The notes beneath the pieces were generated by a model, which was not told the DNA's origin, searched no databases, and saw only the letters and a program-made list of their open reading frames with translations. Shown here in pieces: positions 21,291 through 47,352 of a stretch of 64,000 nucleotides of DNA (position 1 is its first letter; the number at the start of each line of letters is the position of its first letter). Both the position numbers and the translations under genes were made by a program. The DNA comes from a virus: positions 1-64,000 of the IMG/VR virus record IMGVR_UViG_3300025030_000054; one strand, 5' to 3'.

Positions 21291-21647
21291 ATGAAAAAGC
21301 ACATAAAAGTTAGTGCTAAATATAACAGAGATGGAGAGACTTTTACGTTGACTGTTAAGGAGATGACTCATCCTTCTGTGTTTGACTTTGGAGGTGGCCA
21401 GTCCGAAGTGACCTCAGAGTATAGAGTCAAGATGTTTGTTCATGGAAATACTTTGTTAGCTTTTAACGGACTTACTGGTTTTGGTGACTCGGAGTTTACC
21501 TTAAGAGCTTGGTCAGCACCTAAAGAAGTCACAAAAGTTTTCGTACTAAACTCCCAAGAATCTGAAAACACAATGACCCTTCCTGTTAAATACTGGCCGG
21601 ATTTAAGGGAAGCTATTAAGGCTTACAATGAATTTTACTCTGAATGA
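21291..21647 (+). CDS. MKHLK-family protein 1
   Basis: 118 aa, first of 14 genes sharing one unknown fold. N-terminal strand KKHIKVSAKYN, second strand TFTLTVKEMTH, a conserved FDFGG, variable centre, then LPVKYWPDLREAIKAYNEF at the C-terminus. Two beta strands plus a C-terminal helix recur in all copies. Function unknown. A palindrome copy lies directly upstream. Confidence 0.82.
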   Translation: MKKHIKVSAKYNRDGETFTLTVKEMTHPSVFDFGGGQSEVTSEYRVKMFVHGNTLLAFNGLTGFGDSEFTLRAWSAPKEVTKVFVLNSQESENTMTLPVKYWPDLREAIKAYNEFYSE

Positions 21648-21662
21648 AAATAGGAGAATTAT

Positions 21663-21854
21663 ATGAAACAGAGTACTAAAGACGAGGTAAAAGTCGTTAA
21701 GGTTATAAATTCTTGCGTTACTTTTGAGCAGTGGTGGGTGGCTAGAGAGATGGTTAAGAATTGGGACAGGATGCACTGGGAGAAGTGGCGTAGCAGTCCT
21801 TTGTGGAAGATACTTAACAGAAAATACAAAAAACTTATCTATAAGGAGAACTAA
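21663..21854 (+). CDS. Small Trp-rich basic protein
   Basis: 63 aa, TFEQWWVAREMVKNW and MHWEKWRSS give seven Trp residues in one helical stretch. ATAGGAG upstream. Unknown. Confidence 0.7.
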   Translation: MKQSTKDEVKVVKVINSCVTFEQWWVAREMVKNWDRMHWEKWRSSPLWKILNRKYKKLIYKEN

Positions 21855-21855
21855 A

Positions 21856-22308
21856 ATGGACAGATTCGCTGATGCTAAAGTTGGTGATAAGGTTTATGAT
21901 AGAGTGTATGGTTTTGGTAAAGTGAAAGCAACACACCCATATAGTAATAAAGACCAGCTTCCGTTAAAGATAGACTTCCACAAACACATAGGGACACATT
22001 CTTATAGCAGTTGTGGGAAGTCCTACCTCCACGCGGAAGAAGCCACCCTCTTCTATGTAGACGGTGGCAACAAATACGCCGAAAAGAGGCCCATTCCAAA
22101 AGTGCCTTGGGATAAAGTTCCGGTTGATACTAAGATTATAGTCGGCGGCGATATGAAGAGGTATTACGCTGGATTTAAGCATTTCTATCCCGTAGGGCTG
22201 ACTTCTTGGACTAATGGAATACCTGTAGAGAAATTTGGCTCTCACATCGTAGTCTTGGCAGAAGAAATAACAATCGACGGCGTAGTTTATCCTATAGGGA
22301 GTAAATAA
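21856..22308 (+). CDS. Hypothetical protein with KOW/SH3-like start
   Basis: 150 aa from ATG at 21856 (AAGGAG). It begins FADAKVGDKVYDRVYGFGKV, the pattern of a small SH3/KOW-like barrel seen in phage and prophage proteins. A second similar module begins VPVDTKIIVGG. It is one of several barrel-type proteins here, with 39456 and the tail of 25964. Unknown role. Confidence 0.78.
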   Translation: MDRFADAKVGDKVYDRVYGFGKVKATHPYSNKDQLPLKIDFHKHIGTHSYSSCGKSYLHAEEATLFYVDGGNKYAEKRPIPKVPWDKVPVDTKIIVGGDMKRYYAGFKHFYPVGLTSWTNGIPVEKFGSHIVVLAEEITIDGVVYPIGSK

Positions 22309-22318
22309 GGAGACTGAA

Positions 22319-23683
22319 ATGTCCACAAAAGCACTTGAAATATGCCTAGAAGTTCACAAACAAAACGGAACTGCCTACATAACCGGAGGGGCTGTTAGAG
22401 ATATGCTTTTGGGGTGGCCTTGCAATGATGTAGACCTTGAAGTGTTCGGAATTTCTCAGGAAACTCTGGAGACTATTTTGAACACTGTCTGTTCTAAGGT
22501 AGATCTTGTAGGCAAATCTTACGGAATTTACAAGGCAGATGGTATTGACGTGGGATTTCCTCGTAGAGACAGAACACATGGAAAAGGGGCTGACGTTGAA
22601 ATTGATCCTTACATGTCAGTTGAAGAAGCTGCTTTGCGGAGAGATCTTACAGTAAATTCCATGTATTTCAACCCGATAACTATGGATATAATTGATCCTT
22701 TTGGTGGTAGGGTAGATTTACAGAGACAACTTGTAGGTATGGTTTCTTATGACACTTTCAACGAAGACCCATTGAGGCCAATTAGAGCAGCTAGGTTTTG
22801 TGCTACTTTGGGTTTATTTCTACACGGTGATACTTTAACGGCTTGCCAAACTGCTGATCGAAACAAAATACACAACTTACCCAAAGAACGTATTTTCGGT
22901 GAACTTGAAAAAGTACTGATGGAAGCAGAATATCCTTCAGTATTCTTCGAAGAACTTGATGACATGGATTTGACTAAAATTCTGTTTCCTGAGTTGCAGC
23001 TAACCAAGCAAATAGAACAAGGCAAATGTTACCACCCGGAAGGCTCTGTTTATGCACATTCACTCTTAGCCCTCGATGTACTACCAATAAAAGAAAGATC
23101 CTTAGATGTTTTATTAGCAATCCTATTTCATGACCTCGGCAAAGCATCTGTAGAAACCGAGGTAAGTGGCGATAAGATCAGTTTTAAAGGTCACGCAGAA
23201 GATCTTACCTTAGCTACCGCTGCAATGGCTAGATTGACGGATGATAAAGAGCTGACCGAAAGTGTGCTTAACCTAATCAAATACCACATGCACCCTTACC
23301 AGTTCAAGAACGGAGTGACTAAAAAGCGGATTAGAAGGTTAGCATCGAAAGTTGATGTTAGAAAACTTATGAAAGTTCACAAAGCAGATCAAAAAGGTAG
23401 GGAATATTCAGAGGAGAATAATAAATATGTCAAAAGAAACAATGAAGTTGCTGCTGAAATTATGGCCGTATTTGAAGAGATTGAAGGAGAAATCGTGCCT
23501 ATTATGCAAGGCAGACACCTCATCGAAGCAGGGTGGGTGCCAGGAAAACATTTCGGCTACATTCTTGCGCAGCTTTACGAGTACCAGTTAGACGGCGAAT
23601 TGGTTGATGTTGCTAGTGGCATGGAACTAGCTCATACGTTGTTTGGCGGGGTGAAGAAATCAACAGTTGTTAAAGGAGCCTGA
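22319..23683 (+). CDS. cca: tRNA nucleotidyltransferase (CCA-adding enzyme) with HD domain
   Basis: 454 aa. It builds or repairs the 3' CCA end of tRNAs using CTP and ATP. The head has the nucleotidyltransferase signature GGAVRD (23-28) and DVDLEV with the metal-binding aspartates (37, 39). RRDLTVNSMYFNP and the ERxxGEL-type motif (KERIFGELEKVL) follow. A C-terminal HD phosphohydrolase domain (HDLGK at about 271) resembles the E. coli-type enzyme. All catalytic residues seem intact. It sits beside an RNA ligase and glutamyl-tRNA synthetase, consistent with tRNA repair during infection. AAGGAG precedes the ATG. Confidence 0.93.
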   Translation: MSTKALEICLEVHKQNGTAYITGGAVRDMLLGWPCNDVDLEVFGISQETLETILNTVCSKVDLVGKSYGIYKADGIDVGFPRRDRTHGKGADVEIDPYMSVEEAALRRDLTVNSMYFNPITMDIIDPFGGRVDLQRQLVGMVSYDTFNEDPLRPIRAARFCATLGLFLHGDTLTACQTADRNKIHNLPKERIFGELEKVLMEAEYPSVFFEELDDMDLTKILFPELQLTKQIEQGKCYHPEGSVYAHSLLALDVLPIKERSLDVLLAILFHDLGKASVETEVSGDKISFKGHAEDLTLATAAMARLTDDKELTESVLNLIKYHMHPYQFKNGVTKKRIRRLASKVDVRKLMKVHKADQKGREYSEENNKYVKRNNEVAAEIMAVFEEIEGEIVPIMQGRHLIEAGWVPGKHFGYILAQLYEYQLDGELVDVASGMELAHTLFGGVKKSTVVKGA

Positions 23684-23685
23684 AA

Positions 23686-24093
23686 ATGATTATCTCAAAA
23701 TCTGGATTGCCGCACGCCGAGCAGTATTTAGTGGCCTTGAAAGAACTACGTCAGCAGTATTTGGATTGGCGACGTGGCTCTGTGACGTGCCCTTTGTGTT
23801 GTGTACTTCGAGATTGTTCTGAGTGCCCTTGGCGAACACTTACGGGAGCGAATTGTTTCAGTAGCTTACGGGGTCTAAAACAGAAAAACAAAATTCTAAG
23901 AAAATTCAAGTTTCTAAGAAAAATTGCTCTAAAAATTAACCGACCAATAGCCAAAAGAATCAAAGAGCTGGACCTTTGGATAGCTATTTACAAGCAGTAC
24001 ATCCACTACATCAAAAGAGGTATGCCGCCAGAACTCGCCATGAAACTTACTAAATCACTTTACGGAGACCTTCTAAATGAGGCTAGAAATTAA
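23686..24093 (+). CDS. Cys-rich basic hypothetical protein
   Basis: 135 aa. The N-terminal half holds CPLCCVLRDCSECPW, likely a zinc or Fe-S cluster site, then a further Cys. The C-terminal half is a very basic helix (RKFKFLRKIALKINR). This CPLC...C..CPW pattern recurs in phage proteins of unknown function. It follows cca by three bases and overlaps the next gene. Confidence 0.77.
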   Translation: MIISKSGLPHAEQYLVALKELRQQYLDWRRGSVTCPLCCVLRDCSECPWRTLTGANCFSSLRGLKQKNKILRKFKFLRKIALKINRPIAKRIKELDLWIAIYKQYIHYIKRGMPPELAMKLTKSLYGDLLNEARN

Positions 24094-24253: not shown

Positions 24254-24290
24254 TTCAGACGCTAACTAAGACCCCAAAAGGAGATCTGAG

Positions 24291-24842
24291 ATGGAACAGA
24301 ACGAAGAATTTGTAAGCTTCCCCAAAATGCCGAGGCTTTCCCGCGATGTAGTAGTGACTGAGAAGATCGACGGAACAAACGCACAGGTTTTTATCACAGA
24401 CGATTTCAGGATGTTTGTTGGTAGCCGTAATAAATGGATTCAGCCAGGCAAACAAGACAATGCGGGTTTTGCCGGATGGTGCGAGGCAAATAAAGAAGAA
24501 CTCATGAAGCTCGGCCCAGGAAGGCACTTTGGTGAGTGGTGGGGAAAAGGCATTCAGAGAGGTTATGGATTGTCTGAAAAGAAATTCTCCCTATTCAATG
24601 CAGAACGTTGGGCAGACCCCTCAGTACGCCCTGCTTGCTGCGACGTAGTGCCTGTGTTGTATAAAGGACCGTTTGATACGGCAGCTATCGAGGAAGTTTT
24701 GAGGAAGCTGAAAGAATCTGGTAGCGTAGCTGCACCGGGATTTATGAATCCTGAAGGGATTATCGTCTACCACACCGCTGGAAACTTTGGCATGAAAAAG
24801 ACCATTGATAATGATGGTATGCCTAAATCTCTGGTAAAGTAA
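24291..24842 (+). CDS. RNA ligase (Rnl2/DRB0094-like)
   Basis: 183 aa. Motif I KIDGTN (about residues 25-30) holds the lysine that becomes adenylated. GRHFGEWWGKGIQ (motif III region), PEGIIVYH (motif IV) and MKKT (motif V) follow in order. The compact size without extra domains fits the short Rnl2/DRB0094-like branch, which seals nicked or broken RNA. It lies downstream of cca and upstream of gltX. The likely task is rejoining tRNAs cut by host anticodon nucleases (inference). Confidence 0.87.
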   Translation: MEQNEEFVSFPKMPRLSRDVVVTEKIDGTNAQVFITDDFRMFVGSRNKWIQPGKQDNAGFAGWCEANKEELMKLGPGRHFGEWWGKGIQRGYGLSEKKFSLFNAERWADPSVRPACCDVVPVLYKGPFDTAAIEEVLRKLKESGSVAAPGFMNPEGIIVYHTAGNFGMKKTIDNDGMPKSLVK

Positions 24843-24898
24843 CTTCGTAGGTTAACCCAAAGAATTACCAACTAAGACCCCAAAAGGAGAATCTTACA

Positions 24899-25963: not shown

Positions 25964-27064
25964 ATGAAACACATCAAATTCACTGCTACACCCGTTGGCC
26001 CGGATTTTCAGACGGTAGAAGTGGTTATTGTGGAACAGAGTCATGTGCGAGAGCGGTTTGGGATTGGCGGTTCTGATAGGTTTAAGGCGAGCAATGGAAT
26101 GGAACTTCGCAGTATAGCCTGCCCTGAAATATACAGAAACTATATTTGTGTCAGGGGCGATTTAACCTGTGGTAATGACAACAAACTCATCTTCACCACC
26201 TCAGAATACAACAAATTTCGGGAAGCTGCAGAGGAGTACAACGAGTATTTTAAAGACAAACCCAAAAGCAAAAAGCCACAACGTCTTAGGGTCCACGCAG
26301 AAGCTATTGGCCCGGACTTCAAAAATGTGTCTGTGACTGTAGTTGAACAGAGTTGCTTTGAGGGGCAGTTTGGGAATAAGTTTATCTATGAAAAGATAGG
26401 AGATTTTGTACACGGAAAAGTCAGACTTTGCTCTAGTACCGGAGGCAGTGGGGTGAATTTTTTAGAATTTTTTGTTCCATCTGAGTACAAAAACAAAGGA
26501 CTCATCGGAACCTTCTATGTAGCTAACAAAGTGACTAAAGAGGACAAGGAAAAGCTTAAAACTGTTGTTACTGTGGAAGTGTGGCAGGAGATTTTGAAGA
26601 CTGTTGAGGTGTTTAATAAGGAGTTTTGCGAGGATATTTCTGAGACGGAGCTTGCTGAGATTCCTGTGGAGAAGAAGCCCGAGGTTCAGAAAGATAGGTA
26701 TTTTGTAAGGACTAAAAGTAACAGCTCAAATCATAACTTCGCAGCGGGACTTGTAGGCAAGGTCGTAAAAGAATCCAACAGCGGAAGATCTGTTACGGTA
26801 ACTCTCCCTAACGGACAAACAAGTAATTGGCTCAAAGAAAACTGCGTGGAAATCACTGAGATCCCTGTGGTAGAGAAGAAGAGGTGGTTTGTTAGGACTA
26901 AACCTAATCGCTATGCTATTGCTGGTATTATCGCCTCCGTAGGGACTGTTGGGAAATTTGTTCAAGGTAGCGTGGGTGGGGTACACGTAAAGTTGCCTAG
27001 CGGTAAAACTGAATTCTGGGATAGTGAGAACTGCGTCGAGGTTAGGGATCTTCCTAATGTGTAG
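25964..27064 (+). CDS. MKHLK-family double domain fused to two SH3-like repeats (protein 2)
   Basis: 366 aa. Two family domains in tandem: residues 1-98 (MKHIKFTATPVG ... AAEEYNEYFK) and about 105-225 (RLRVHAEAIGPD ... EVFNKEFCE). Two repeats follow, each about 50 residues (RYFVRTKSNSS ... NWLKENCVEI and RWFVRTKPNRY ... FWDSENCVEV), like small beta barrels. It is the only gene with the family domain fused to something else and hence the best clue to function: the barrels may direct the domain to a nucleic acid or protein target. Confidence 0.82.
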   Translation: MKHIKFTATPVGPDFQTVEVVIVEQSHVRERFGIGGSDRFKASNGMELRSIACPEIYRNYICVRGDLTCGNDNKLIFTTSEYNKFREAAEEYNEYFKDKPKSKKPQRLRVHAEAIGPDFKNVSVTVVEQSCFEGQFGNKFIYEKIGDFVHGKVRLCSSTGGSGVNFLEFFVPSEYKNKGLIGTFYVANKVTKEDKEKLKTVVTVEVWQEILKTVEVFNKEFCEDISETELAEIPVEKKPEVQKDRYFVRTKSNSSNHNFAAGLVGKVVKESNSGRSVTVTLPNGQTSNWLKENCVEITEIPVVEKKRWFVRTKPNRYAIAGIIASVGTVGKFVQGSVGGVHVKLPSGKTEFWDSENCVEVRDLPNV

Positions 27065-27074
27065 TGATGGTTGG

Positions 27075-27143
27075 TAGGTAGTTGAAAGTGTAGTTGATAG
27101 GTAGTTGAAAGTGTAGTTGATAGGTAGTTGAAAGTGTAGTTGA
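27075..27143. repeat. Three exact 23-bp tandem repeats
   Basis: Units at 27075-27097, 27098-27120 and 27121-27143, each TAGGTAGTTGAAAG then TGTAGTTGA. Immediately after the stop of the 366-aa gene and just before a large hairpin. Confidence 0.85.
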
Positions 27144-27153
27144 AAGGATAAGG

Positions 27154-28291: not shown

Positions 28292-29665
28292 ATGGAGAAA
28301 GGATTCGTAAGAACTGCGCCCAGCCCTACTGGACGACCTACGTTAGGTACTTCTAGAACGGCGATTTACAACTTTCTACATGCAAGACAGCAAGGTATGG
28401 GGTATTTAACCAGGCTAGAGGACAGTGATCCAGTACGCTCTAAGCAAGAATTCGCTGACGATATTATAGAAGGACTTGCGTGGCTTGGGATAGTATCTGA
28501 CGTGCCAATCATAAAACAATCTGAGCGTGGAGATATATATGCAAAATACGTGGATCAGTTGTTAGCCGAAGGTAAAGCATACCGGTGTTACTGTTCGGCT
28601 GAGAAGTTAGAAGCGGATCGGGAGAGGAAACTAGCGGCAAAAGAGAAGCCTATTTACGACAGAACTTGCTTAGGGCTTGGTGAGCAGCCGGGCAAGCCTT
28701 TTACGGTGAGGCTGAAGGTGGATACCTACGGCGCTGTGACTTTTCGGGATGCTGTGTACAAAAGGGTGAATGTGAGGAAGGCAGAAATTGGAGATTTTAT
28801 TGTTCAAAGAAGTGATGGCACAGTAGGGTACCTTCTATCTAACGTAATTGACGATGCTTTGCAAAATGTTACTATGGTTATAAGAGGCCGCGATGGAATT
28901 AGTAACGCTCCCGCACAAATTTTATTGTATGAGGCTCTCGGTTTTCCAGTACCTAGCTACGCCCACGCCGCCTTTATATTAAACGAAAAAGGTCAGAAAC
29001 TTTCCAAGAGGAACGGAGATGCCTCACTATTGGACTACCGCGATAAAGGTTACTTGCCAGAAGCTATGTTCAACGCCCTCGCAAGAATAGGAGCAAGTTT
29101 CGGGGATAGGGAACTGTTAAGTGTAAAGGAGATGGTAGAGCTATTTGACCTAAAAAATCTTAGTAAATCCGATGGCGTTTTCGACCCTCAAAAGCTTCTT
29201 AACATCAACAAGCACTGGATCAAAACCATTGAACCAGAAAGATTACAAACACTATTAACCCCATTCCTTCTTAAAGAACAAATAACCGAAGAACAAATAT
29301 CCGAATTTAATAAAGTATCTTCAGTAAGTAAGGCAATCCAAACGCTACAAACTCGCTCGGCCACCCTTGTAGAAATGGCTCAAAAGGCTAAATTCTACTT
29401 CATACGGCCAGCCTATTCGTCCATCAGTTTAACAGGATTTCAAAAGGCAATTTTACAGTCATTCATAGACAACCTAACCAACAACAACTCAATAGACGAA
29501 GCCATAGAAGAAACCTGTAAGCAAGCTAACTGCACGATAAAGGAACTTGGGCCGCCGGTTAGATTATCCCTCTCAGGCTCTCTTGCAGCACCCGGAATAG
29601 TAGAAATCATTGAAGTTCTGGGGACCAAAGAAACTATTGAAAGGATTAAATTGGTAATTACCTAA
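28292..29665 (+). CDS. gltX: Glutamyl-tRNA synthetase, altered HIGH motif
   Basis: 457 aa, nearly full bacterial length. It would charge tRNA-Glu with glutamate. Class I catalytic core: APSPTGRPTLGTSRTA (residues 9-24), where normal enzymes read LHIG or LHVG, so the first HIGH histidine is Thr here. Zn-site cysteines CYC (99, 101) and C126 are kept. VIRGRDGISNAP replaces the common RGxDH. The KMSKS-type loop KLSKR (236-240) is intact, including the Ser that HipA kinase phosphorylates in E. coli GltX. The C-terminal anticodon-binding region is present. A complete GltX is rare in phages. The stop codon is supplied by a palindrome copy (KLVIT-stop). AAAGGAG precedes the ATG. Confidence 0.92.
   Translation: MEKGFVRTAPSPTGRPTLGTSRTAIYNFLHARQQGMGYLTRLEDSDPVRSKQEFADDIIEGLAWLGIVSDVPIIKQSERGDIYAKYVDQLLAEGKAYRCYCSAEKLEADRERKLAAKEKPIYDRTCLGLGEQPGKPFTVRLKVDTYGAVTFRDAVYKRVNVRKAEIGDFIVQRSDGTVGYLLSNVIDDALQNVTMVIRGRDGISNAPAQILLYEALGFPVPSYAHAAFILNEKGQKLSKRNGDASLLDYRDKGYLPEAMFNALARIGASFGDRELLSVKEMVELFDLKNLSKSDGVFDPQKLLNINKHWIKTIEPERLQTLLTPFLLKEQITEEQISEFNKVSSVSKAIQTLQTRSATLVEMAQKAKFYFIRPAYSSISLTGFQKAILQSFIDNLTNNNSIDEAIEETCKQANCTIKELGPPVRLSLSGSLAAPGIVEIIEVLGTKETIERIKLVIT
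29653..29662. promoter_or_regulatory. GGTAATTACC palindrome, copy 19
   Basis: Overlaps the last codons of gltX (TTG GTA ATT ACC TAA). Confidence 0.68.
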
Positions 29666-29710: not shown

Positions 29711-30070
29711 ATGAAGAAGCATATTAAGATCCGAGCGGAGCTAGTTGATAACAAAACTAGAGTCAAAGTAACCATTCTGGAACAGTCCCATTTCCTCTAC
29801 TACTTCGCAGAACATAAAACAAGTTTTATAAATGAGACTCACGCTTTCTGTCACGGTAGAATCAGAATGGCTTCTCATAGAGAAAATATTCCTAAATTTA
29901 TGATAGGAGGTCTAACTAGCAAAGAATTTAAGAAAAATGGCATAGTAGACAAACTCTATGTAGCTCATTCCCAGTACCAACTACCAGTCACTTTCACAGT
30001 TACTTTAAAAGACTACCCAGCAATCAAAAAGTGCATCGAAGCATACAACTCATACGAATTCACTAACTAA
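29711..30070 (+). CDS. MKHLK-family protein 3
   Basis: 119 aa. KKHIKIRAELVDNKTRVKVTI then LEQSHFLYYFAE, a variable centre with CHGRIRM, and KDYPAIKKCIEAYNSYEF at the C-terminus. Starts with GAGGAGCC, shortly after gltX. Confidence 0.82.
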   Translation: MKKHIKIRAELVDNKTRVKVTILEQSHFLYYFAEHKTSFINETHAFCHGRIRMASHRENIPKFMIGGLTSKEFKKNGIVDKLYVAHSQYQLPVTFTVTLKDYPAIKKCIEAYNSYEFTN

Positions 30071-30371: not shown

Positions 30372-30372
30372 G

Positions 30373-31980: not shown

Positions 31981-32334
31981 ATGAAAAGGCACCTGAAGGT
32001 TAGAGCTGAATTAGTAAGACGTAATGAAGAAGTTAAGGTTACTATACTAGAGAAAGTTGCGGAGCCTAGTAAATTTAGTAAGATAGGAATGTCTCACCCA
32101 AGTCACCATTCAGGAGTATTTAGGCATGAAGATGTGCTTTTGATATCTTTAGATTGGTTGCAAAAATCTAGGTACACTGGATTTAAGTGGAATACTGGAT
32201 TTGGAATTAACATGCACTATTTCGAGATAGGCCATACTCCTACTTTAACTCTCCCAATAAAAGTATGGCCAAAGATAAAAAAGGCTATCGAAGCGTACAA
32301 CGAATGGGGTGCTGAAAATCCTATAGAGGAGTGA
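31981..32334 (+). CDS. MKHLK-family protein 4
   Basis: 117 aa. KRHLKVRAELVRRNEEVKVTI then LEKVAEPSKF (EQTH motif changed to EKVA), a centre without FG, and LPIKVWPKIKKAIEAYNEW. TAGGAGG precedes. Followed by copy 5 after seven bases, so a tandem duplication. Confidence 0.8.
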   Translation: MKRHLKVRAELVRRNEEVKVTILEKVAEPSKFSKIGMSHPSHHSGVFRHEDVLLISLDWLQKSRYTGFKWNTGFGINMHYFEIGHTPTLTLPIKVWPKIKKAIEAYNEWGAENPIEE

Positions 32335-32340: not shown

Positions 32341-32631
32341 ATGAAACATTTAAAACTAAGAGCCAGACTCGTTCCAAACTCCAAAGAAGCAATTGTTACT
32401 GTAGTTGAGCAGACACATGGATACTACGAGTTTGGGAATAGTGCAGGTAAGTCACACTTCAGATGTTCAGAAGGAGCTATAAGTTCACACCCGATGACTG
32501 TGCCACTAATGGGTTCTAATTTATGGCTAGGAACAGGGCCTGGAATAGAATTCATAATACAACAATCACGGTGGCCTAAAATCAAAAAGTTAGTAGAAGC
32601 ATACAATGAATGGGGAGCAACTCAACCTTAA
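32341..32631 (+). CDS. MKHLK-family protein 5
   Basis: 96 aa, the shortest copy: KHLKLRARLVPNSKEAIVTV, VEQTHGYYEFGN, RWPKIKKLVEAYNEW. Reads directly after copy 4. Its small size shows the minimal domain. Confidence 0.8.
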   Translation: MKHLKLRARLVPNSKEAIVTVVEQTHGYYEFGNSAGKSHFRCSEGAISSHPMTVPLMGSNLWLGTGPGIEFIIQQSRWPKIKKLVEAYNEWGATQP

Positions 32632-33651: not shown

Positions 33652-33661
33652 GGTAATTACC
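33652..33661. promoter_or_regulatory. GGTAATTACC palindrome, copy 20
   Basis: Context AAATTGGTAATTACCTATTT, three bases ahead of AGGAGG of the 33678 gene. Confidence 0.74.
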
Positions 33662-33677: not shown

Positions 33678-34016
33678 ATGCCAGATAGTAAAGAAAGGAG
33701 GTGGGAAGGTGAAAAGAAATGGATCAAGTATCGTGCTAAATTAACCACAGATAAGAAATCAGTAGCTGTTACTATTTTAGAGCAGAGTCATAGGAGCTAT
33801 AACTTTGGAGTGGGAGGTGAGGATGAGTTTAGGTATCTCGGCTACGGCATAGGCAGTATCGCTTATCCAGATACGACTTCTGTGTTCACGTACCTACGAG
33901 GCAGCGAAACCAGCCGAGACGACACAACCATATACATGCCACTAGAAATGTACCAGAAGTTCAAAGCTACAGTTCTAGCTTATAACAAGTATTTTAAAGG
34001 CGACTCAGAAGACTAA
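33678..34016 (+). CDS. MKHLK-family protein 6
   Basis: 112 aa with a 13-residue N-terminal extension before KWIKYRAKLTTDKKSVAVTI. LEQSHRSYNFGVGG, later TIYMPLEMYQKFKATVLAYNKYFK. Palindrome copy 20 lies in its leader. Confidence 0.78.
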   Translation: MPDSKERRWEGEKKWIKYRAKLTTDKKSVAVTILEQSHRSYNFGVGGEDEFRYLGYGIGSIAYPDTTSVFTYLRGSETSRDDTTIYMPLEMYQKFKATVLAYNKYFKGDSED

Positions 34017-34090: not shown

Positions 34091-34483
34091 ATGAAACACA
34101 TTAAACTCGAAGTAGCAGCTAACCCGGAATTCAGCCAGACACTTATCCGCGTAGTTAGCCAGACCAACGTAGGCAAAAAGTTCGGCAACATGAAAGGCGA
34201 CCTGCGTAAATTCAAAGCGGCCAACGGTCTTACAATCGCTAGCAACCTGTTCCCCGCTAAAGATGAGGACTTCAGGAACACTCAGACGATTTGGCTTCAG
34301 GGTCTTGGCTCTGCATCTCAAAATGCTACTTGCCTTGCCCTCCCCAATGACGTGGCAGTTAAACTTTGCGAGGCTGTTGAGGAGTATAATGAGTACTATA
34401 CCCAAGCTAACGTTAACCGCCGCGTGCAAGCCAAGCGTGAAGCTGCGGCACTTCGTAGTGGCCGTGTCGAGTACGTTGGGTAA
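34091..34483 (+). CDS. MKHLK-family protein 7, expression-optimised
   Basis: 130 aa. KHIKLEVAANPEFSQTLIRV, VSQTNVGKKFGN and CEAVEEYNEYY, then a basic tail (VNRRVQAKREAAALRSGR). Codons are richer in C-ending and CGT/CGC forms than other family members, suggesting high expression. Closest relative is protein 8 directly downstream; both have long basic tails. Confidence 0.82.
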   Translation: MKHIKLEVAANPEFSQTLIRVVSQTNVGKKFGNMKGDLRKFKAANGLTIASNLFPAKDEDFRNTQTIWLQGLGSASQNATCLALPNDVAVKLCEAVEEYNEYYTQANVNRRVQAKREAAALRSGRVEYVG

Positions 34484-34602: not shown

Positions 34603-35064
34603 ATGAAACACATCAACGCTAAAGTAATGATTCTTCCGAGCTTTTCCAAGGGACTCATCAAGATCACCGGCCAGACCCACATCAACACTGCTTTCGGTAA
34701 CTCTGATGACGGCAAAACCTTCACAGCTACTAACGGTATTACTCTCGGAAGTAACCGCCGAGTCGCTAGGGATGCTGACGAGGTAAACACCATCTGGCTT
34801 CGTGGCACGGATACTTCTAAAAATTACACTTCGCTTGCTATTCCGGTGAAACGTCTTGGTAAAGTTGTCGATGCTATTAAGGAGTATAACGAGTACTACT
34901 CCGTAGCTAGCATTAACCAGCGAGTCAGGACTAAACGCGCAGCAGAAGCCGAAGCAGCTCGTCAGGCACTTATCGAAGCAGCTCGTCAGGCAGAACTCGC
35001 AAGGCAGGCTGAACTTGCTCGCCGTGCTGTTACTTTCTCTTCCTGCACGTTCATCGTAGGTTAA
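34603..35064 (+). CDS. MKHLK-family protein 8, Ala-rich tail, expression-optimised
   Basis: 153 aa. KHINAKVMILPSFSKGLIKI, TGQTHINTAFGN and VDAIKEYNEYY, then an Arg/Ala/Gln helix with tandem AARQAELARQAEL. The leader CATAAGGAGAATACAAAATG and codon bias mirror protein 7. A stable helical tail and high expression hint at a structural or abundant binding protein. Confidence 0.82.
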   Translation: MKHINAKVMILPSFSKGLIKITGQTHINTAFGNSDDGKTFTATNGITLGSNRRVARDADEVNTIWLRGTDTSKNYTSLAIPVKRLGKVVDAIKEYNEYYSVASINQRVRTKRAAEAEAARQALIEAARQAELARQAELARRAVTFSSCTFIVG

Positions 35065-35071: not shown

Positions 35072-35407
35072 GTGCCCCCGCGAGAGCATAGGCACATAAA
35101 GTATAGAGCTGAATTGTTGAGTTGTAGGAGTCGGGTTAAAGTCATGGTCCTTGAGCAAACCCACAGGGGCCGTGACTTTGCTTTACCAGAGGATGGGAGT
35201 GCTCTATACTCAGGTGGTCAGAGTTTTGAGCATGAGAACACAATATTGGGAAGCTGGTCTTACCCAGAGTTTTTAGATGGCCGTGACTGGGTGGCCTTGC
35301 GGGGAGACAACCCAGCAAGAGACTTATACCCCATAACATTCCCAACTCTGCAATCTTACTACGATTTTAAAGCTGCTGTGCTTGCCTACAATGAGAGGTA
35401 TAAGTAA
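35072..35407 (+). CDS. MKHLK-family protein 9
   Basis: 111 aa from GTG at 35072, poor binding site, eight bases after protein 8. RHIKYRAELLSCRSRVKVMV, LEQTHRGRDFALPEDG, and FKAAVLAYNERYK at the end. The start is uncertain, but the family match begins within the first eight residues. Confidence 0.72.
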   Translation: MPPREHRHIKYRAELLSCRSRVKVMVLEQTHRGRDFALPEDGSALYSGGQSFEHENTILGSWSYPEFLDGRDWVALRGDNPARDLYPITFPTLQSYYDFKAAVLAYNERYK

Positions 35408-36490: not shown

Positions 36491-38074
36491 ATGAAAGATT
36501 TGTTGAAAACTACTGGCACGGTTTTGAGAAAACATGGTCTTCCTGATACAATGCTTGAGAAACTGCACGATCAGATGCGTGATGCAAAGAGCAGCCTTGA
36601 CTCCACTCTCGGTCTTACAGAATCCACTCTTTTCCGTAAGTCTATCCCGCTTGCTAGGAAAGAGGCAGATGTGCGTAAAGATTATCCGCAGACCTATTCG
36701 GTAATTGCTCATGTTCTTCATCAGGCAATTCAGGCAGGTTCTCCGATTGACTTGGGTTCTGTTTCTCTGATTGAAAATACCGTGAAAGTCAAGAATCAGG
36801 AAAGTAAACTGTCTAGGGTACTGGCCAAGCAACTTAAAGGACAAGAGGAAGTGCTCAAGTATTGTATGCCTGAACTCGGTATCAGCAAACCTGAGCAGTT
36901 TCTTCCTAAACTTGGCGATATAGTAAAGTCTGGAAGGCAACTTTGGGTTTCGACCAACATACTTGATTTCATTTATGCGTCGGAACATGCCTCCTTTACT
37001 TCTTGCCATTCCCTCAGCGGGTGCCACTTCAACGGTAACTTGGCATACGCTAGGGATGGTCTGACCTTGATAACCTTCGTTTCTGACGAAAAGGCAACCG
37101 CAGCGCAGCATGAAATTTATAAGCTGGGAAGGAGCTGGATGTTTGTCGTGGATAATACAATCATACAGCCCAAGTCTTATGGCGCTTACTACGATTTTGA
37201 AAGGGACACTGCGAGGCTGTTTGTAGAAGAGAAGATCGCGGAGTCTCTAGGGGTAGAAAACAAGTGGAAGATCAAACGCGGCGGTAGCATTGGCGAGGTA
37301 TATTTTGAGGAGCCTAAAGATAAGTATGCCAGCTCTGGTAGTGGTGCGCTCTACCTTGACAACTATGATCTGGATATCTCCTACATGGGTTCGTATAATT
37401 CTCCTAGCGTAGAGTTTTCTGCAGCAATGTGCTTGGAGTGTGGCCAGACCACTGATTATACTCAGAAGGGAGTTTGCACAGAACATGACGGCAAAGTTAA
37501 AGCAACCTGCCCGATCTGCGGAGAAAGGCACATCACTCACAATATGTACAACGTTGGTGGGGAAGAAGGTACTGTCTGTTCAACGTGCTTTACCCTAGAG
37601 TTTGGTCAGTGCAATCAGTGTGGAAACTATCATCGTAAGGGTGCTTTGGAAACTATCGACGGTAGGTTTGTTTGTGCTCCCTGCAAACAAAACCACTACA
37701 CAACCTGCGATTGCTGCGGAACTTTTAGCAAAAAAGACAAACTGGCTAATCTGAAAGGTGTTGGAAATGCTTGCCTTTCGTGCCAAGATAAGTACATGCT
37801 CTGCTCAATCTGTGGCGACTATCATCTTAAATCTGACGTTGAGTATTACAAGTATGTCGGTCGGGTGTGCAAAGTCTGCGTCGAATTTAGCACCTTCCCT
37901 TGCATTTCCTGCGGAGAAGTTCACCCTATGTCTGACAGAAAGGTAACTGGAAAGGAATCTCTCTGTACTGCTTGTGAGGCTCGTAGGGAAGGAAAAGAAG
38001 TTACACTTAAGTTTAAGCCTAAGTACGCTGATCTTCCTGAAGGTTGGGACGACTATGTAGAAGAAGTCGGCTAA
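36491..38074 (+). CDS. Multi-zinc-knuckle protein, 527 aa, unknown
   Basis: The N-terminal 300 residues are a folded domain with WVSTNILDFIYASEH then SCHSLSGCHFNGNLAYARDG and later GRSWMFVVDN, a set that recurs in phage and mobile-element proteins without assigned activity. The C-terminal part (about residue 315-505) has eleven CxxC motifs (CLEC, CPIC, CSTC, CNQC, CAPC, CDCC, CLSC, CSIC, CKVC, CISC, CTAC), many followed by CG-x(2)-H, an array of tandem zinc knuckles for RNA, DNA or protein binding. Codons are C-ending rich as in 34091. Palindrome copy 21 lies in its leader. Confidence 0.85.
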   Translation: MKDLLKTTGTVLRKHGLPDTMLEKLHDQMRDAKSSLDSTLGLTESTLFRKSIPLARKEADVRKDYPQTYSVIAHVLHQAIQAGSPIDLGSVSLIENTVKVKNQESKLSRVLAKQLKGQEEVLKYCMPELGISKPEQFLPKLGDIVKSGRQLWVSTNILDFIYASEHASFTSCHSLSGCHFNGNLAYARDGLTLITFVSDEKATAAQHEIYKLGRSWMFVVDNTIIQPKSYGAYYDFERDTARLFVEEKIAESLGVENKWKIKRGGSIGEVYFEEPKDKYASSGSGALYLDNYDLDISYMGSYNSPSVEFSAAMCLECGQTTDYTQKGVCTEHDGKVKATCPICGERHITHNMYNVGGEEGTVCSTCFTLEFGQCNQCGNYHRKGALETIDGRFVCAPCKQNHYTTCDCCGTFSKKDKLANLKGVGNACLSCQDKYMLCSICGDYHLKSDVEYYKYVGRVCKVCVEFSTFPCISCGEVHPMSDRKVTGKESLCTACEARREGKEVTLKFKPKYADLPEGWDDYVEEVG

Positions 38075-38124: not shown

Positions 38125-38164
38125 ACTGTAAGTAAACTTGGAAGAACCTAAAGGGGGACATAGA

Positions 38165-39463
38165 ATGGGTTATAAATTAAACACAATTCAAGAAGTGCTG
38201 GAAATGCCTACTGACGAAATGCTCCCAGCGTGTACAGATTACCTACTAGACTACTTTGAAGCTGACCCGAAGTCTGATCCGAAGGTTTACGTTTTGGAGG
38301 ATGATTTTGTATATGCCATCGGAGAAAGTCCTATCACTATCGTAGCGCACGTTGATACGGTTCGTGATAGATACATGCAAAAAGTGCCTACAAAAAATAC
38401 AGCCAACATAGTTCTAGCGAGTAGCAAGAAAGATGATTCGATGGTTCTTTGTCAAGACAGAAATGTTATCACAAACCTCAACGGAGTTCTGGGGGCCGAT
38501 GACAGAGCGGGAGTCTTCGGGTGCCTTGAGATAGTCAGACGTTGTAGTGAAGCTGGCTTACCTTTGCCAAGTGTCATTCTTACTAACGGGGAAGAGAGCG
38601 GGGGAATTGGTGTTGGGGCTTTTTGCAGATCTAAAATCTTTGAAGAACATGACAAAGGAAGGACCAAACTCTTTGTAGAAATGGACCGCTGCAACGCTAC
38701 AGAATGGGTTACTTACGGTGCTAAACTGCCTTCGGAAGTAGTTTCGTATGTTGAGTCGTTCGGATTCCATAAAGGTCATGGGTCATATTCTGATATAGCA
38801 GACTTGCAGGAGGAATATTTAATTCCTGCTGTAAACGTAAGTATCGGATATTACTCACAGCATTCGGCTTGTGAAAAACTTCATGTGGATGAGATGTACT
38901 TAACCATTGAGAGAGTTTTTCAAATGGTTAAAGATCCTATTGACAAACTCTATAAAGTAGATGCTGATGTTAAGGGCTATGGGTGGGATGAAGATTGGTA
39001 CAACCATTATAACCACAAAAACTATGTCAGTACTAACCACAACAAACCAAAAACAGAAACTCCTAAAACAACTACTAACAAGACTACCAAAGGAGTTACT
39101 TCATTTCCACAAGGCAAGCCTGGAAAAACTTCTGTTGATAATGCTCTGGATGCTATTACGAGGGGTGGATTTTGTATCAGTTGTGGGCATATCTGGAGTG
39201 ATTGCGAATGCGGCGAAATGCTTAAGGACATTGCAGCATACATGTACAAGGAAGAGATAGAGTTCCTCTTAGAGAACTACCTGTTTCCGGAAGATTCTAT
39301 GCATATTCTTCTCACTGCGTTTTTGGAAATGGAAAATGACCAGATTGCTGCAATAGACGTTGCTGTTGTGGCTGACGAAGGGACCAAGCTGCTAATTCAA
39401 AATAATGCTGTTGAGCAGTTTGCTAAAGAATCTGAGAATAACGAGGGGGTAGGAAATGCCTAA
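38165..39463 (+). CDS. Zinc-dependent M20/M42-like peptidase
   Basis: 432 aa from ATG at 38165. Co-catalytic metal motifs: IVAHVDTV (H-x-D), GADDRAGVFG (bridging Asp), TNGEESGGIG (catalytic Glu pair), VEMDR and a late SIGYYSQHSACEKLHVDE with the final His. The order matches M20/M42 aminopeptidases. The last 110 residues carry a zinc ribbon-like CISCGHIWSDCEC. Such peptidases occur in some large phages; the substrate is unknown, perhaps peptides released by host proteolysis or a host signal peptide. Confidence 0.82.
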   Translation: MGYKLNTIQEVLEMPTDEMLPACTDYLLDYFEADPKSDPKVYVLEDDFVYAIGESPITIVAHVDTVRDRYMQKVPTKNTANIVLASSKKDDSMVLCQDRNVITNLNGVLGADDRAGVFGCLEIVRRCSEAGLPLPSVILTNGEESGGIGVGAFCRSKIFEEHDKGRTKLFVEMDRCNATEWVTYGAKLPSEVVSYVESFGFHKGHGSYSDIADLQEEYLIPAVNVSIGYYSQHSACEKLHVDEMYLTIERVFQMVKDPIDKLYKVDADVKGYGWDEDWYNHYNHKNYVSTNHNKPKTETPKTTTNKTTKGVTSFPQGKPGKTSVDNALDAITRGGFCISCGHIWSDCECGEMLKDIAAYMYKEEIEFLLENYLFPEDSMHILLTAFLEMENDQIAAIDVAVVADEGTKLLIQNNAVEQFAKESENNEGVGNA

Positions 39464-40455: not shown

Positions 40456-41274
40456 ATGGATGAGAATAGCAAGCAGGGAGGTGAGGTGATTGAGAGTGTG
40501 GATTTAGGTAATACCAATTTAGAGCCTAAGCACAGGGAAAATTCATCTAAAGAATTATTTCAAAAAGATCCGGCAAGGTATTGGTACATTGAAGGAATGA
40601 GAGACGAAATAGAGTTACTGTACGAAGAGGCGGCTACTAAATACACCGCTGCGTACACTCAGGCAATTAGGGAAGGTAGATCTTCCGCGTTGCCTTACAA
40701 GTGGGAAGCCATGCGGTGTATTGAATTTGCAGCGATTTATAAAGGTTTAATGGATGAATGGGCAGCTACTAAAAATACTGGCCGAATGATTGACGAGCAT
40801 CAGCACATGGTTCACTGGTATGATGAGAAATCAGTGGTACCAAAAGAATTACTCGACGTGTACAAGAAAAAGGTTCCTGCGGGATTTCTATATAACGTAG
40901 TAATATATAACAGAGAAAATAAACAATGCCGGTTTGTCCACTCACTAGATTATCATAAGGACTCTGACCCTCTTATGGATAGAGAGTATGTTGCATATCC
41001 TGGAGGGTTTGTTCAGGCAAATGTGTATATCAAAGACCCTGAAGTTATCTTTCACAAGTGGATGTTAACCTCTAATAAACTTAATGACACACACGATTTC
41101 AGGAATGCGGTTAAGAGAAGCATCAGACTGAGGTACTTGCAAATGCCTGATTCGCTTAGACAAGAAATGCACAAGAGTAGTGTGTACAAAAAGTATGTGG
41201 CTCCCGCTATTGGAAATCGTAGTGTGGGTAGTTTGTTCGATGACTTTGTTGCCTACAAGGCTGGGTTAGTATGA
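40456..41274 (+). CDS. Hypothetical protein, 272 aa
   Basis: Mostly helical (YIEGMRDEIELLYEEAATKY, CIEFAAIYKGLMDEWAATK) with a central beta segment. No motif recognised. AAAGGAG precedes. Overlaps the next MKHLK-family gene by four bases. Confidence 0.8.
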   Translation: MDENSKQGGEVIESVDLGNTNLEPKHRENSSKELFQKDPARYWYIEGMRDEIELLYEEAATKYTAAYTQAIREGRSSALPYKWEAMRCIEFAAIYKGLMDEWAATKNTGRMIDEHQHMVHWYDEKSVVPKELLDVYKKKVPAGFLYNVVIYNRENKQCRFVHSLDYHKDSDPLMDREYVAYPGGFVQANVYIKDPEVIFHKWMLTSNKLNDTHDFRNAVKRSIRLRYLQMPDSLRQEMHKSSVYKKYVAPAIGNRSVGSLFDDFVAYKAGLV

Positions 41275-41600
41275 AAAAATATCTTAAAGTTCGTGGAGAG
41301 TTGGTCTACCCAGATAACAAATTCGTTCGTATGACAGTGCTAGAAAATAGTCATGATGGTTATGAGTTTGGTGGGAACTCTGATGGCAGGCTTGGTGGTT
41401 ATGTATTTGTAACTGGAAGAATCAGACTTAGGGCCACTAAAACAGCACTTCCAAGTTTTTATGTAGCTCCTGCAGGCACATATTATGTATGGGTAACTCT
41501 AGGAAACCCAATAGGCGGCTCTATCCTAATACCCATAGAGTACTGGAAAGAAGTTAAAGAAGCTGTTCTAACCTACAACGAATGGGGGAAATCTCAATGA
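41271..41600 (+). CDS. MKHLK-family protein 10
   Basis: 109 aa. KKYLKVRGELVYPDNKFVRM, TVLENSHDGYEFGGNS and EAVLTYNEWGK. Start overlaps the previous stop, and its stop overlaps the start of copy 11 (ATGA). Confidence 0.8.
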   Translation: MKKYLKVRGELVYPDNKFVRMTVLENSHDGYEFGGNSDGRLGGYVFVTGRIRLRATKTALPSFYVAPAGTYYVWVTLGNPIGGSILIPIEYWKEVKEAVLTYNEWGKSQ

Positions 41601-42211
41601 AACATTTAAAACTACGTGCTGAATTGGATAAGATAGATAAAAATTTCTGTTTTGTGGAGGTAGTTGAGCAGACACATAGGAGGTTAGATTTTGGGGTTAC
41701 TTTTAGTGGAGCCGGTTCTTTTGCTCATGGAGAGATTATGCTAGTGTCTTATGGAGAACCTCAGTGGGTTAACCACGGATTTGGCCGGGGTGGACATTCA
41801 GGGGTAGCCTTCCGGTTGTATGTACGGGGTCATCAAGAACAAAGAGATAAAGATAAAGTGAGAGTACCTACAAACATGTGGCCTAAAATAAAAGCTGCTG
41901 TTTTGGCTTATAATGAATTTTATTCTGGTAATAAAGAGGTGAAGAAAGAGAGTAAGGTAGAACCAGTAGTTAAAGCGACTGTTAAAAGTAAGGCTGATAA
42001 AGAATCTGACTGGGGCAGAATAACCAAAGAGTCTTTTGAGAAGTGCCTTGCTCAATATACTTCCACACTGGACACTGAATTTATTTATAGTGACTCAGTA
42101 GTAGAAGCGCCGCCAAGTCCACGGTGGCAAGCTACAAGGCGTACCTTTAACACTGATTTAAGGGGCTACATTACTTCTGCCTATTTTTTGGATGACCTTA
42201 ATGGCGACTAA
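41597..42211 (+). CDS. MKHLK-family protein 11 with 90-residue tail
   Basis: 204 aa from ATG at 41597. Family domain residues 1-115 (KHLKLRAELDKIDKNFCFVEV, VEQTHRRLDFGV, WPKIKAAVLAYNEFY), then a charged linker and a C-terminal segment with no recognised motif. Translationally coupled to copy 10. Confidence 0.8.
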   Translation: MKHLKLRAELDKIDKNFCFVEVVEQTHRRLDFGVTFSGAGSFAHGEIMLVSYGEPQWVNHGFGRGGHSGVAFRLYVRGHQEQRDKDKVRVPTNMWPKIKAAVLAYNEFYSGNKEVKKESKVEPVVKATVKSKADKESDWGRITKESFEKCLAQYTSTLDTEFIYSDSVVEAPPSPRWQATRRTFNTDLRGYITSAYFLDDLNGD

Positions 42212-43310: not shown

Positions 43311-43320
43311 GGAGGAGTCT

Positions 43321-43743: not shown

Positions 43744-43760
43744 AAATTAAAGGAGACTAA

Positions 43761-45119: not shown

Positions 45120-45133
45120 TTGGTAGCAAAATA

Positions 45134-45143
45134 GGTAATTACC
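45134..45143. promoter_or_regulatory. GGTAATTACC palindrome, copy 22
   Basis: Context AAATAGGTAATTACCTAAAT, nine bases ahead of AAGGAGG of MKHLK protein 12. Confidence 0.74.
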
Positions 45144-45165
45144 TAAATCTTAAGGAGGGGGTACA

Positions 45166-45540
45166 ATGAAGCACCTTAAAATACGGGCAGAGTACAGACC
45201 TGCCACAAAAGACGTAGAAGTAACTTTATTAGAGCAGTCGCATTTTGGTACTGATTTCGGTAGGATAGAAGATGCTTTTAAGATTGATCCAAAAAATAAT
45301 TGTGTGTTTAAACATAATGGTGTGGCGATTTATAGCCATATCACTTACAATAGAACCCCAATCTATTTTCACAAAAACAAGTACTCAAACGAAGTAAACA
45401 AAATTACCACTTGGATTTGCTTAGGAGATAGTTCCTCAATATTCAAACAAACTAAAGTAGAAAACACAGTGCCGATTGCTGAATGGCCAGCCTTGAAAGC
45501 AGCTATTGAAGCCTACAACGAATGGGGAGTTATCCAATGA
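45166..45540 (+). CDS. MKHLK-family protein 12
   Basis: 124 aa. KHLKIRAEYRPATKDVEVTL, LEQSHFGTDFGRIE, a Lys-rich insert in the middle and EWPALKAAIEAYNEWGV. Overlaps copy 13 by four bases. Confidence 0.82.
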   Translation: MKHLKIRAEYRPATKDVEVTLLEQSHFGTDFGRIEDAFKIDPKNNCVFKHNGVAIYSHITYNRTPIYFHKNKYSNEVNKITTWICLGDSSSIFKQTKVENTVPIAEWPALKAAIEAYNEWGVIQ

Positions 45541-45887
45541 AACATTTAAAAATTAGAGGGGAACTTGTAAAAGAAGCTAAGGATAAAGTTAAAGTAACCA
45601 TTCTGGAACAGACGCATTTCTTTAGAGAGTTCGGTAATGTTACAGATAAAATGGCTGGCTCTGCCTTTATTCATGGAGAAGGGATTTTGCACAGCGACGG
45701 AGAAGAGCCTTTATACAGCGGCAAAAATTCATACGCCGGACCTGACGCAAAGTACTACCACTGGCTATTTGTTAATGGGCAATCACACCACAAAGGCGAT
45801 GTTGTGGAACCTATAACACTAGAGGCTTGGGCAGTTTTGAAAGAAACTGTGAAGGCTTACAACGAATGGGGAGCAGATCAACCTTAG
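45537..45887 (+). CDS. MKHLK-family protein 13
   Basis: 116 aa from ATG at 45537 (ATGA overlap). KHLKIRGELVKEAKDKVKVTI, LEQTHFFREFGNV, EAWAVLKETVKAYNEWG. RtcB follows 13 bases downstream. Confidence 0.82.
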   Translation: MKHLKIRGELVKEAKDKVKVTILEQTHFFREFGNVTDKMAGSAFIHGEGILHSDGEEPLYSGKNSYAGPDAKYYHWLFVNGQSHHKGDVVEPITLEAWAVLKETVKAYNEWGADQP

Positions 45888-45900
45888 AGGAGAAACTACT

Positions 45901-47004
45901 ATGTCGATTTTAGATAAATTTGCCTCACTTATTCCACTTGAAGATTTAGAAGAAGGAGCTAAACAACAAATTTACAACATCCTGAAACTTGACTGTTTAA
46001 AGAAACTTGCATTGATGCCAGATGCCCACCAAGGCTATGATATGCCTATTGGTGGAGTGGCTTTGCTAGACGGATTTATCTCAGCTAGCTTCGTGGGCTA
46101 TGATTTGGGATGCGGCGTATGCCATATAGCTACTGAAGAAAACGCAGAAGACTACTCAAAAGATGATTTACAACACATTTATAAGACTATCCACAAGACT
46201 ATTCCGACAGGGTTTTCTTCACATTATCATTCTAAAGACTATCTTCCTAAGTTTAAGTCTGCGATTCTTGATAAACAGACCACTGACAGAATAGCAGAGA
46301 AGGTTGACTTTCAGCTTGGTACACTAGGCGGTGGAAACCACTTCATAGAAATTGGAAGCAATAGGAAAGGTAAACTGGCGGTAACTATCCATTCTGGCTC
46401 TAGGAATGTGGGACATACTATCGGCGGGGCTTATATGAAGATGGGTCGTATGTTTGAACTTTCTTCGGAACTAGGTCAGTCTTACCTGAGAGACATGAAC
46501 TACGCACTTGACTGGGCTTTGGAAAACAGAATGCAAATGATGCGGAAGGTTTTAGAAGCAATTGGGATTAATAATAAAAATATAACGGTAGTCTTGAAGG
46601 ACGTTATAAACGAGAACCATAATCATGCTGTAGTTACTTCTGAAGGTGTTTTGCACCGTAAGGGAGCTACTCCTGCTGATTTAGATCAACTTGGTATTAT
46701 TCCGGCTAACATGCGAGACGGAGTTTATATTACTAGGGGTTTAGGTAATACCGAATTTTTGTCATCAGCTAGTCACGGTTGCGGTAGGCTTATGGGAAGG
46801 AACGTAGCTAAGAAATCTCTAGACTACGATGAATTCGTAACTCAGATGGAAGGTATTGTATGCTCCACCGACAGAAGCATTTTAGATGAGGCTCCAAATG
46901 CCTATAAAGATGTTAACTATGTGCTTGATGCTCAAGTTGGTAGGACTGTGGAAGTTGTTGATTTTATTAAGCCTTTGCTAAATATTAAAGCAGGAGGAGA
47001 CTAA
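45901..47004 (+). CDS. rtcB: RNA-splicing ligase RtcB
   Basis: 367 aa. It ligates RNA 2',3'-cyclic phosphate ends to 5'-OH ends with GTP and Mn. Signature motifs: PDAHQGYDMPIGG, GYDLGCGV (metal Cys), GGGNHFIE, HSGSRNVG, NHNHAVV and SHGCGRLMGR with the guanylated histidine region, then YKDVNYVLDA. It is shorter than E. coli RtcB (408 aa) but all motifs are seen. It would heal breaks left by anticodon nucleases; GAGGAG precedes. Flanked by MKHLK-family genes on both sides. Confidence 0.93.
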   Translation: MSILDKFASLIPLEDLEEGAKQQIYNILKLDCLKKLALMPDAHQGYDMPIGGVALLDGFISASFVGYDLGCGVCHIATEENAEDYSKDDLQHIYKTIHKTIPTGFSSHYHSKDYLPKFKSAILDKQTTDRIAEKVDFQLGTLGGGNHFIEIGSNRKGKLAVTIHSGSRNVGHTIGGAYMKMGRMFELSSELGQSYLRDMNYALDWALENRMQMMRKVLEAIGINNKNITVVLKDVINENHNHAVVTSEGVLHRKGATPADLDQLGIIPANMRDGVYITRGLGNTEFLSSASHGCGRLMGRNVAKKSLDYDEFVTQMEGIVCSTDRSILDEAPNAYKDVNYVLDAQVGRTVEVVDFIKPLLNIKAGGD

Positions 47005-47007
47005 CCA

Positions 47008-47352
47008 ATGAGCAGACACCTAAAAATAAAAGCACAATTAAATCTAGATAAAAAGACAGCAACTCTCACGTGGATTTCTCAAACTCATTTTGGAAGTAAT
47101 TTTGGAAATAGTAGGCCGGTTGGTAGTTATATGTTTGACAGTAGCTCCTTCAATATTGGCAACTTTAGTCTTGTAAGTCATCCTGACAACGAGTTCAGAA
47201 AAGCGAGGTTAAGCCTGCCTAGTAATAAAAATAATAAATGGTTTTTGGTACCTTGTCGAATCAATCCGTGGAATCCAACCACTACAATAGAAGTAGAAGA
47301 CTGGCCTTGGATTAAAAAACTGGTGGAATCTTACAATGAATTTTACAAATAA
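47008..47352 (+). CDS. MKHLK-family protein 14
   Basis: 114 aa. RHLKIKAQLNLDKKTATLTW, ISQTHFGSNFGNSR, EDWPWIKKLVESYNEFYK. Last family member in the window. AGGAGG precedes, three bases after rtcB. Confidence 0.8.
   Translation: MSRHLKIKAQLNLDKKTATLTWISQTHFGSNFGNSRPVGSYMFDSSSFNIGNFSLVSHPDNEFRKARLSLPSNKNNKWFLVPCRINPWNPTTTIEVEDWPWIKKLVESYNEFYK

Follow-up and report, generated by a model that had tools for sequence, protein, structure and literature searches.

A phage protein family of 15 domains with constant ends and divergent centres

Introduction

The window considered here comprises bases 1-64,000 of the 105,687-bp linear viral record IMGVR_UViG_3300025030_000054, and between positions 21,291 and 47,352 it carries 14 genes which an earlier note, made from the sequence alone, had grouped into one protein family of 15 domains. 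Judged by its genes, the source is a distant T5-like phage, i.e., a virus of bacteria, with a terminase ~30% identical to T5-like phage terminases. The locus raises the question why a phage should keep so many copies of one small protein and which part of them is kept constant. The reading favoured here, for which a probability of roughly one half is given, is that of a non-virion, host-directed family of variable binders whose central loops would set the target and would be diversified by recombination.

One family with a conserved core and a predicted fold of its own

All 14 open reading frames (ORFs) were found intact on the plus strand, each with start and stop codon (Table 1), whereby the longest ORFs of two copies start at 41582 and 45522, in frame upstream of the MKHLK starts at 41597 and 45537. 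When leave-one-out profiles were used (E-values at Z=1000), each of the 15 domains matched the profile of the other 14 with 44-88 bits and E-values of 4e-26 to 2e-12, the best of 999 shuffles per domain reaching only 3.5-12.4 bits. The 15 domains are hence confirmed as one homologous family, as had been proposed, and a profile search of the complete record identified no additional copies outside the window. The motifs given in the earlier note were correct but incomplete, lacking one more conserved F, the conserved S and, for the short forms, P and [YFW][VL]RG; the core common to all relatives comprises E-Q-[TS]-H, F-G, F, S, P, [YFW]-[VL]-R-G and Y-N. The long tail-less copies are without the R-G and D residues.

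AlphaFold, run for copy 33678 with 69 family sequences, yielded a model with a predicted local distance difference test (pLDDT) score of 94.8 and a predicted template modelling (pTM) score of 0.86, in which strands at residues 4-10, 16-24, 38-41, 44-47, 58-60 and 72-76 are followed by a helix at 77-95. For the long copy 45166 (pLDDT 90.8) the order of elements was unchanged and the loops between strands 2 and 6 were longer, so that a small β-sheet with a C-terminal helix is confidently predicted for short and long forms alike. A Foldseek search of the PDB (350,542 chains) gave no match below E 1 for either model, and the matches in BFVD were to uncharacterised phage proteins with 18-20% identity and a predicted fold like that of the family, namely A0A8S5R5N7 (E 5e-6, TM 0.73), A0A8S5T4K4 (E 2e-5, TM 0.68) and A0A8D9C9H8 (E 7.5e-4, TM 0.57; TM values normalised on the query). 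Because the PDB search was empty and the BFVD matches were uncharacterised only, the predicted fold is regarded as being without recognisable solved relative, within the limits of Foldseek for small beta-rich proteins.

Pfam, NCBIfam, PHROGs and PADLOC returned no significant match consistent across members, only isolated single-member matches with E > 0.004. These, including one to the DNA mimic Arn (E 0.054), were attributed to chance as no other member repeated them, and a PDB profile match to 2JRO (E 0.046) was lost with a larger alignment; a confident match to a known structural family was thus obtained neither by PDB profile nor by Foldseek. Acidic DNA-mimic inhibitors of the Ocr or ArdA type were dismissed, as the family carries no strong negative charge (mean net charge +2.6; window copies -2 to +8). 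INPHARED, queried at nucleotide and protein level with the long form, the short form and a consensus, yielded no close relative, and a plasmid search gave no relative. The view that no known family is involved was hence borne out, as no library tried recognised family, fold or domain; across these libraries neither the protein family nor its fold appears to have been described.

Constant ends and divergent centres

Each copy of the window (contig G000) was paired with its ortholog in the closest relative, contig G001. For copy 32341 nucleotide identity was 97-100% over the first 27 codons, dropped to 36-59% in the centre (36% in the block next to these codons) and recovered to 80-90% in the last block. 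In each of the 13 family genes compared in this way the central 40% had a lower identity than the ends (Wilcoxon p=2.4e-4), and at codons for the same residue identity still dropped by 0.17 in the centre (13 genes, p=0.0017). Among 22 size-matched control genes (up to 200 aa) no central drop was seen (p=0.9), the difference between family and controls being significant (p=1.8e-4). At the amino-acid level, tail-less orthologs showed identities of 0.89, 0.57 and 0.91 for N-flank, centre and C-flank, with the dip present in 11 of 11 pairs, and tail-less paralogs within the window showed 0.43, 0.16 and 0.38. The variable segment (~codons 28-80) falls between strands b2 and b6 of the predicted fold.

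The earlier note had described the centre as the most variable part and had proposed a fixed scaffold carrying a diversifying surface. Both statements hold for the tail-less copies, i.e., for most of the family, but not for the adjacent conserved copies 34091 and 34603, for which, taken together with their relatives in contigs G003 and G005, a central dip is lacking (0.44, 0.43 and 0.37). Positive selection in the centre, for which it had suggested a test, was not sustained in the form of selected point mutations, which were rejected on a ratio of nonsynonymous to synonymous divergence (dN/dS) of 0.09-0.38 throughout the family ortholog pairs. Since synonymous positions in the centre diverge along with the rest, replacement of the centre by recombination fits the sequences better than recurrent selected point mutations. 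Targets of diversity-generating retroelements likewise present a hypervariable part on a fixed scaffold; the family differs in that its variable part is central and includes length and synonymous changes, and such a retroelement was ruled out because no reverse transcriptase was found in the four contigs G000, G001, G003 and G005, in a search that detected its positive controls.

A tree of 89 domains, the deep forks of which gave no support for an order, joined each of the 15 window domains to a counterpart of its own in G001. By this pairing the expansion hence took place before the two closest phages separated, and as each ortholog pair has a dN/dS below 0.4 the copies are considered to be kept by selection. 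Some G003 domains group with window/G001 pairs and others form clusters of their own, which indicates further copies particular to that phage. The tandem pairs described before do exist, with 41271/41597 and 45166/45537 overlapping by ATGA, 31981/32341 lying 6 bp and 34091/34603 lying 119 bp apart; they are however not the product of a recent burst, the copies being old paralogs with a G001 ortholog each.

Table 1. Family domains, associated parts and upstream palindromic sites in the window
Feature	Positions	Strand	Remarks
GGTAATTACC site	21258..21267	none	upstream of copy 1
Copy 1	21291..21647	+	118 aa, no tail, centre variable; closely follows the palindrome at 21258
Domain 2a, first of 366-aa fusion	25964..26254	+	short form; profile match
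Domain 2b, second of 366-aa fusion	26282..26626	+	profile match
Fusion C-terminal repeat 1	26696..26860	+	G-x-V-G-K-V ... LPNG ... W ... ENCVE; SH3/KOW-like by eye
Fusion C-terminal repeat 2	26882..27049	+	second repeat of fusion
GGTAATTACC site	29653..29662	none	upstream of copy 3
Copy 3	29711..30070	+	119 aa
Copy 4	31981..32334	+	117 aa
Copy 5	32341..32631	+	96 aa, minimal
GGTAATTACC site	33652..33661	none	upstream of copy 6
Copy 6	33678..34016	+	112 aa, short form; structure predicted
Copy 7	34091..34483	+	130 aa, conserved tailed class
Copy 7 C-terminal tail	34400..34480	+	ends AALRSGRVEYVG, divergent form of C-terminal motif
Copy 8	34603..35064	+	153 aa, conserved tailed class
Copy 8 C-terminal Ala-rich linker and SCTFIVG-COOH tail	34900..35061	+	
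Copy 9	35072..35407	+	111 aa, GTG start
Copy 10	41271..41600	+	109 aa; stop overlaps copy 11 start (ATGA)
Copy 11	41597..42211	+	204 aa from MKHLK; unrelated C-terminal extension
GGTAATTACC site	45134..45143	none	upstream of copy 12
Copy 12	45166..45540	+	124 aa, long form; structure predicted
Copy 13	45537..45887	+	116 aa; start overlaps copy 12 stop
Copy 14	47008..47352	+	114 aa

Tailed copies and C-terminal peptides

The conserved class, and with it a small number of further short forms from G003 and G005, has a linker rich in Ala or Pro that leads to a C-terminal peptide of the pattern C-x-[FYV]-I-[IVL]-G or to a variant of this pattern (SCTFIVG, SCSYIIG, ACSYVIG, GCSFILG, ACAVIVG, CTVIIG, CAVIIG and CAVVIG, with RVEYVG as variant in 34091). 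By a strict search no non-family ORF in these T5-like genomes was found to end in this way, a looser pattern adding one 47-aa ORF, and the natural reading of the tail is that of a putative C-terminal docking peptide. A different tail is found in G008, a 98-kb contig (L203-L207) in which at least nine small ORFs, from the family and others, end in [DEN]xLFx[IV] (nine strict matches versus 0.33 in shuffles), five of the seven family copies matching the strict DxLFx[IV]-type tail. This end is read as a phage-wide C-terminal tag which may dock to a shared hub such as a sliding clamp.

Further C-terminal parts were observed. Gene 25964 joins two family domains (residues 1-97 and 107-221) to two repeats for which Pfam gave no match, and is directly followed by three tandem copies of the 23-bp repeat GTTGATAGGTAGTTGAAAGTGTA (27070-27147). 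Single-copy members of two phages (L189 1423-1995 and L187 8983-9465) end in a shared-looking module GNYFxTxExAExALxKI, and a neighbouring gene of the Clostridia copy L202 looks similar to it, suggesting that this module may be a recurrent partner domain.

Distribution

Profile searches of related IMG/VR contigs identified, next to the 15 domains of the window, 16 in G001 (64 kb), 29 in G003 (113 kb) and 15 in G005 (113 kb), these being T5-like contigs, as well as 4 in G002 and several in the fragments G004, G006 and G007. Distant relatives, collected by a degenerate-DNA scan for the EQTH....FG core and filtered by the family profile, were found in eight other contigs (G008-G015), where they match over most of the domain with E-values of 1e-13 to 7e-19, except for a contig-end fragment in G014 (6e-8). 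These EQTH...VRG...YN domains keep the conserved core and its polar set (E, Q, T/S, H, S, R-G and often D) and occur in one or two copies in most contigs. G008, with seven copies and almost no other protein in common with the window phage, is seen as a separate expansion. Beyond these, a weak match was obtained to WPH65648.1 of the Fusobacterium phage phiKSUM (E 4e-4). A scan of 84,980 species genomes gave 58 pattern matches, none of which is a relative; 391 Clostridia genomes and 396 from a second phylum (to which the metagenome-assembled genome L165, titled Bacteroidales, belongs), searched by profile, gave one match, a 118-aa protein from Clostridia (E 4e-6); and the final viral pattern scan gave one doubtful match (E 0.03).

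Function and alternative explanations

Under the favoured reading, amplification of the family would have provided a set of small binding proteins, each of one domain and probably located in the cytoplasm. In each copy the scaffold, i.e., strands b1-b2 and then b6 with the long C-terminal helix, would be kept, and the segment from b2 to b6 with its loops and the short strands b3-b5 would be the candidate binding surface. Homologous recombination through the conserved ends would in most copies swap the centre for divergent sequence, so that each orthologous slot could switch its target while the fold persists. Targets would most likely be host proteins or ligands, with components of anti-phage defence as leading candidates, and for the conserved pair 34091 and 34603 the tail would probably dock to one fixed partner. 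An anti-defence use specifically is a more tentative proposal, perhaps correct and held with reserve. Phages with RNA-repair enzymes face RNA-cutting defences, as known for Pnkp and Rnl1 of T4 versus PrrC, and the family is interleaved with an RNA-repair set, namely a CCA/poly(A)-polymerase-like gene (22319-23683), an RNA ligase (24291-24842), a glutamyl-tRNA synthetase-like gene (28292-29665) and RtcB (45901-47004); this makes an anti-defence setting plausible and does not show it.

Several points weigh against the favoured reading. The family-library search linked none of the copies to a known family of defence or anti-defence proteins, and no donor of the replaced centres was found among the related contigs compared. 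Recombination is deduced from synonymous divergence, alignment within the saturated centres is less certain, and the genome is mosaic, 10 of 18 controls likewise having clustered third-position differences (p<0.05). Clustering as such was not used as evidence for this reason, as only the central placement of the cluster sets the family apart from the controls. Finally, gene position is the sole basis for the non-virion role. The genome is that of a phage, as the earlier note had supposed. Its family genes lie outside the virion block: all copies are encoded by the plus strand, at 21-47 kb, where their neighbours are genes for replication and RNA repair and small genes of unknown function, with the virion genes on the minus strand at 0-3 kb and 83-105 kb.

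Alternatively, the copies could act as ligand sponges, each binding a small molecule such as a defence second messenger in a pocket of EQTH, R-G and D, with a ligand preference differing by copy. A shared pocket would account for the polar set that low-copy relatives in unrelated phages have in common, and the phage sponges Acb4, Acb2, Tad1 and Tad2 are small proteins in the size range of the family, Acb4 having 96 aa (PMC11722364). Acb4 is however a tetramer with three antiparallel strands and flanking helices, the sponges gave no Foldseek or sequence match, and no shared fold or significant match was found among the 350,542 PDB chains. Moreover the R-G and D residues are lost in the long tail-less copies, and so divergent a centre is easier to reconcile with protein surfaces than with a single class of small ligands; sponges are thus rated as rather unlikely. 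A use in conflict between phages, i.e., copies acting on competitors in superinfection exclusion or immunity with centres following the rivals, is considered unlikely: centres are exchanged between close relatives with constant flanks, and frequent co-infection is suggested by the homing endonucleases and by the patchy mosaic structure, but the copies show no membrane or secretion signal by eye and nothing specific points to a phage target.

That the copies are phage-internal adaptors or regulators, which modulate phage or host nucleic-acid machinery by binding it, with tails docked to a hub and centres co-diverging with partners, was deemed improbable. The tails, which in T5-like phages are confined to the family and in G008 occur on other small proteins too, would fit this, as would the SH3-like fusions, the positive mean net charge and the palindromic sites upstream of several copies; the neighbours RtcB, ligase and HD protein are however slow-evolving (96-98% identity), so that co-diverging phage partners are not evident. 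It is highly improbable that the centres are functionless loops drifting in weakly constrained duplicates, as a rise in synonymous divergence confined to the centre is not an effect of drift and all 15 copies are intact, one-to-one in G001 and below a dN/dS of 0.4, even though the centre contains indels and, near 22.4 kb in G003, a pair of overlapping ORFs appears degenerate.

Gene context

The perfect palindrome GGTAATTACC (context TTGGTAATTACCTAAA) occurs in 26 exact copies in the 105.7-kb record, where a Markov model expects ~0, in 13 copies in G001 and in three within 20 kb of G002; none was found in G003, G005 and G008. Besides the four sites of Table 1, copies start in the window at 5291, 10414, 12604, 13226, 13275, 13418, 14091, 14613, 15352, 16218, 17347, 18131, 19378, 20470, 24217, 25724, 28257, 36460 and 49603. 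They lie mostly upstream of genes, four family genes included, and many 15-45 bp upstream of start codons; the palindrome is likely an element, operator or promoter, that serves a large regulon of the phage.

Genes read by eye include DNA polymerase I, DnaB, primase, SbcC/SbcD-like nucleases, dUTPase and ribonucleotide reductase proteins. Among the latter, a 999-aa ribonucleotide reductase-like gene with an apparent intein-like insert (record 75573-78572; L009 12573-15572) is followed by a radical-SAM activase-like gene, which suggests an anaerobic host. Two window genes kept in G003 and G005 gave no Pfam match, these being a conserved 527-aa CxxC-rich protein (36491-38074) and, by eye, an M20/M42-type peptidase-like protein (38138-39463). 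At ~49631-55300 the window encodes proteins 100% identical to those of G001 inside a genome otherwise diverged from it; this stretch, which contains a GIY-YIG/helix-turn-helix gene (51519-52841), is by its identity a recent transfer, perhaps by homing.

Implications

Expanded accessory protein sets in phages are of an already known kind; exchangeable centres in up to 29 slots alongside a conserved tailed subclass are new. The literature gave nothing matching an in-genome repertoire of this kind, and to our knowledge the phage sponges have not been reported as such repertoires. A family without annotation in the libraries searched and without solved fold relative fills 14 genes in one phage and ~29 domains in another. 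Exchange of the centre with constant flanks offers a direct route to what a lytic phage diversifies against, the alleles of a slot being swappable, and if the copies inhibit defences they would constitute a ready set of inhibitors for unknown systems of environmental bacteria. In its full form the proposal is doubtful, namely that of a phage recognition repertoire with up to 29 new-fold variants per genome, in which an exchangeable central specificity segment stands alongside conserved tailed copies anchored to a fixed partner via a C-terminal peptide, and which is maintained by recombination and not by a retroelement. If true, it would be the lytic phage's counterpart to a variable-binder library.

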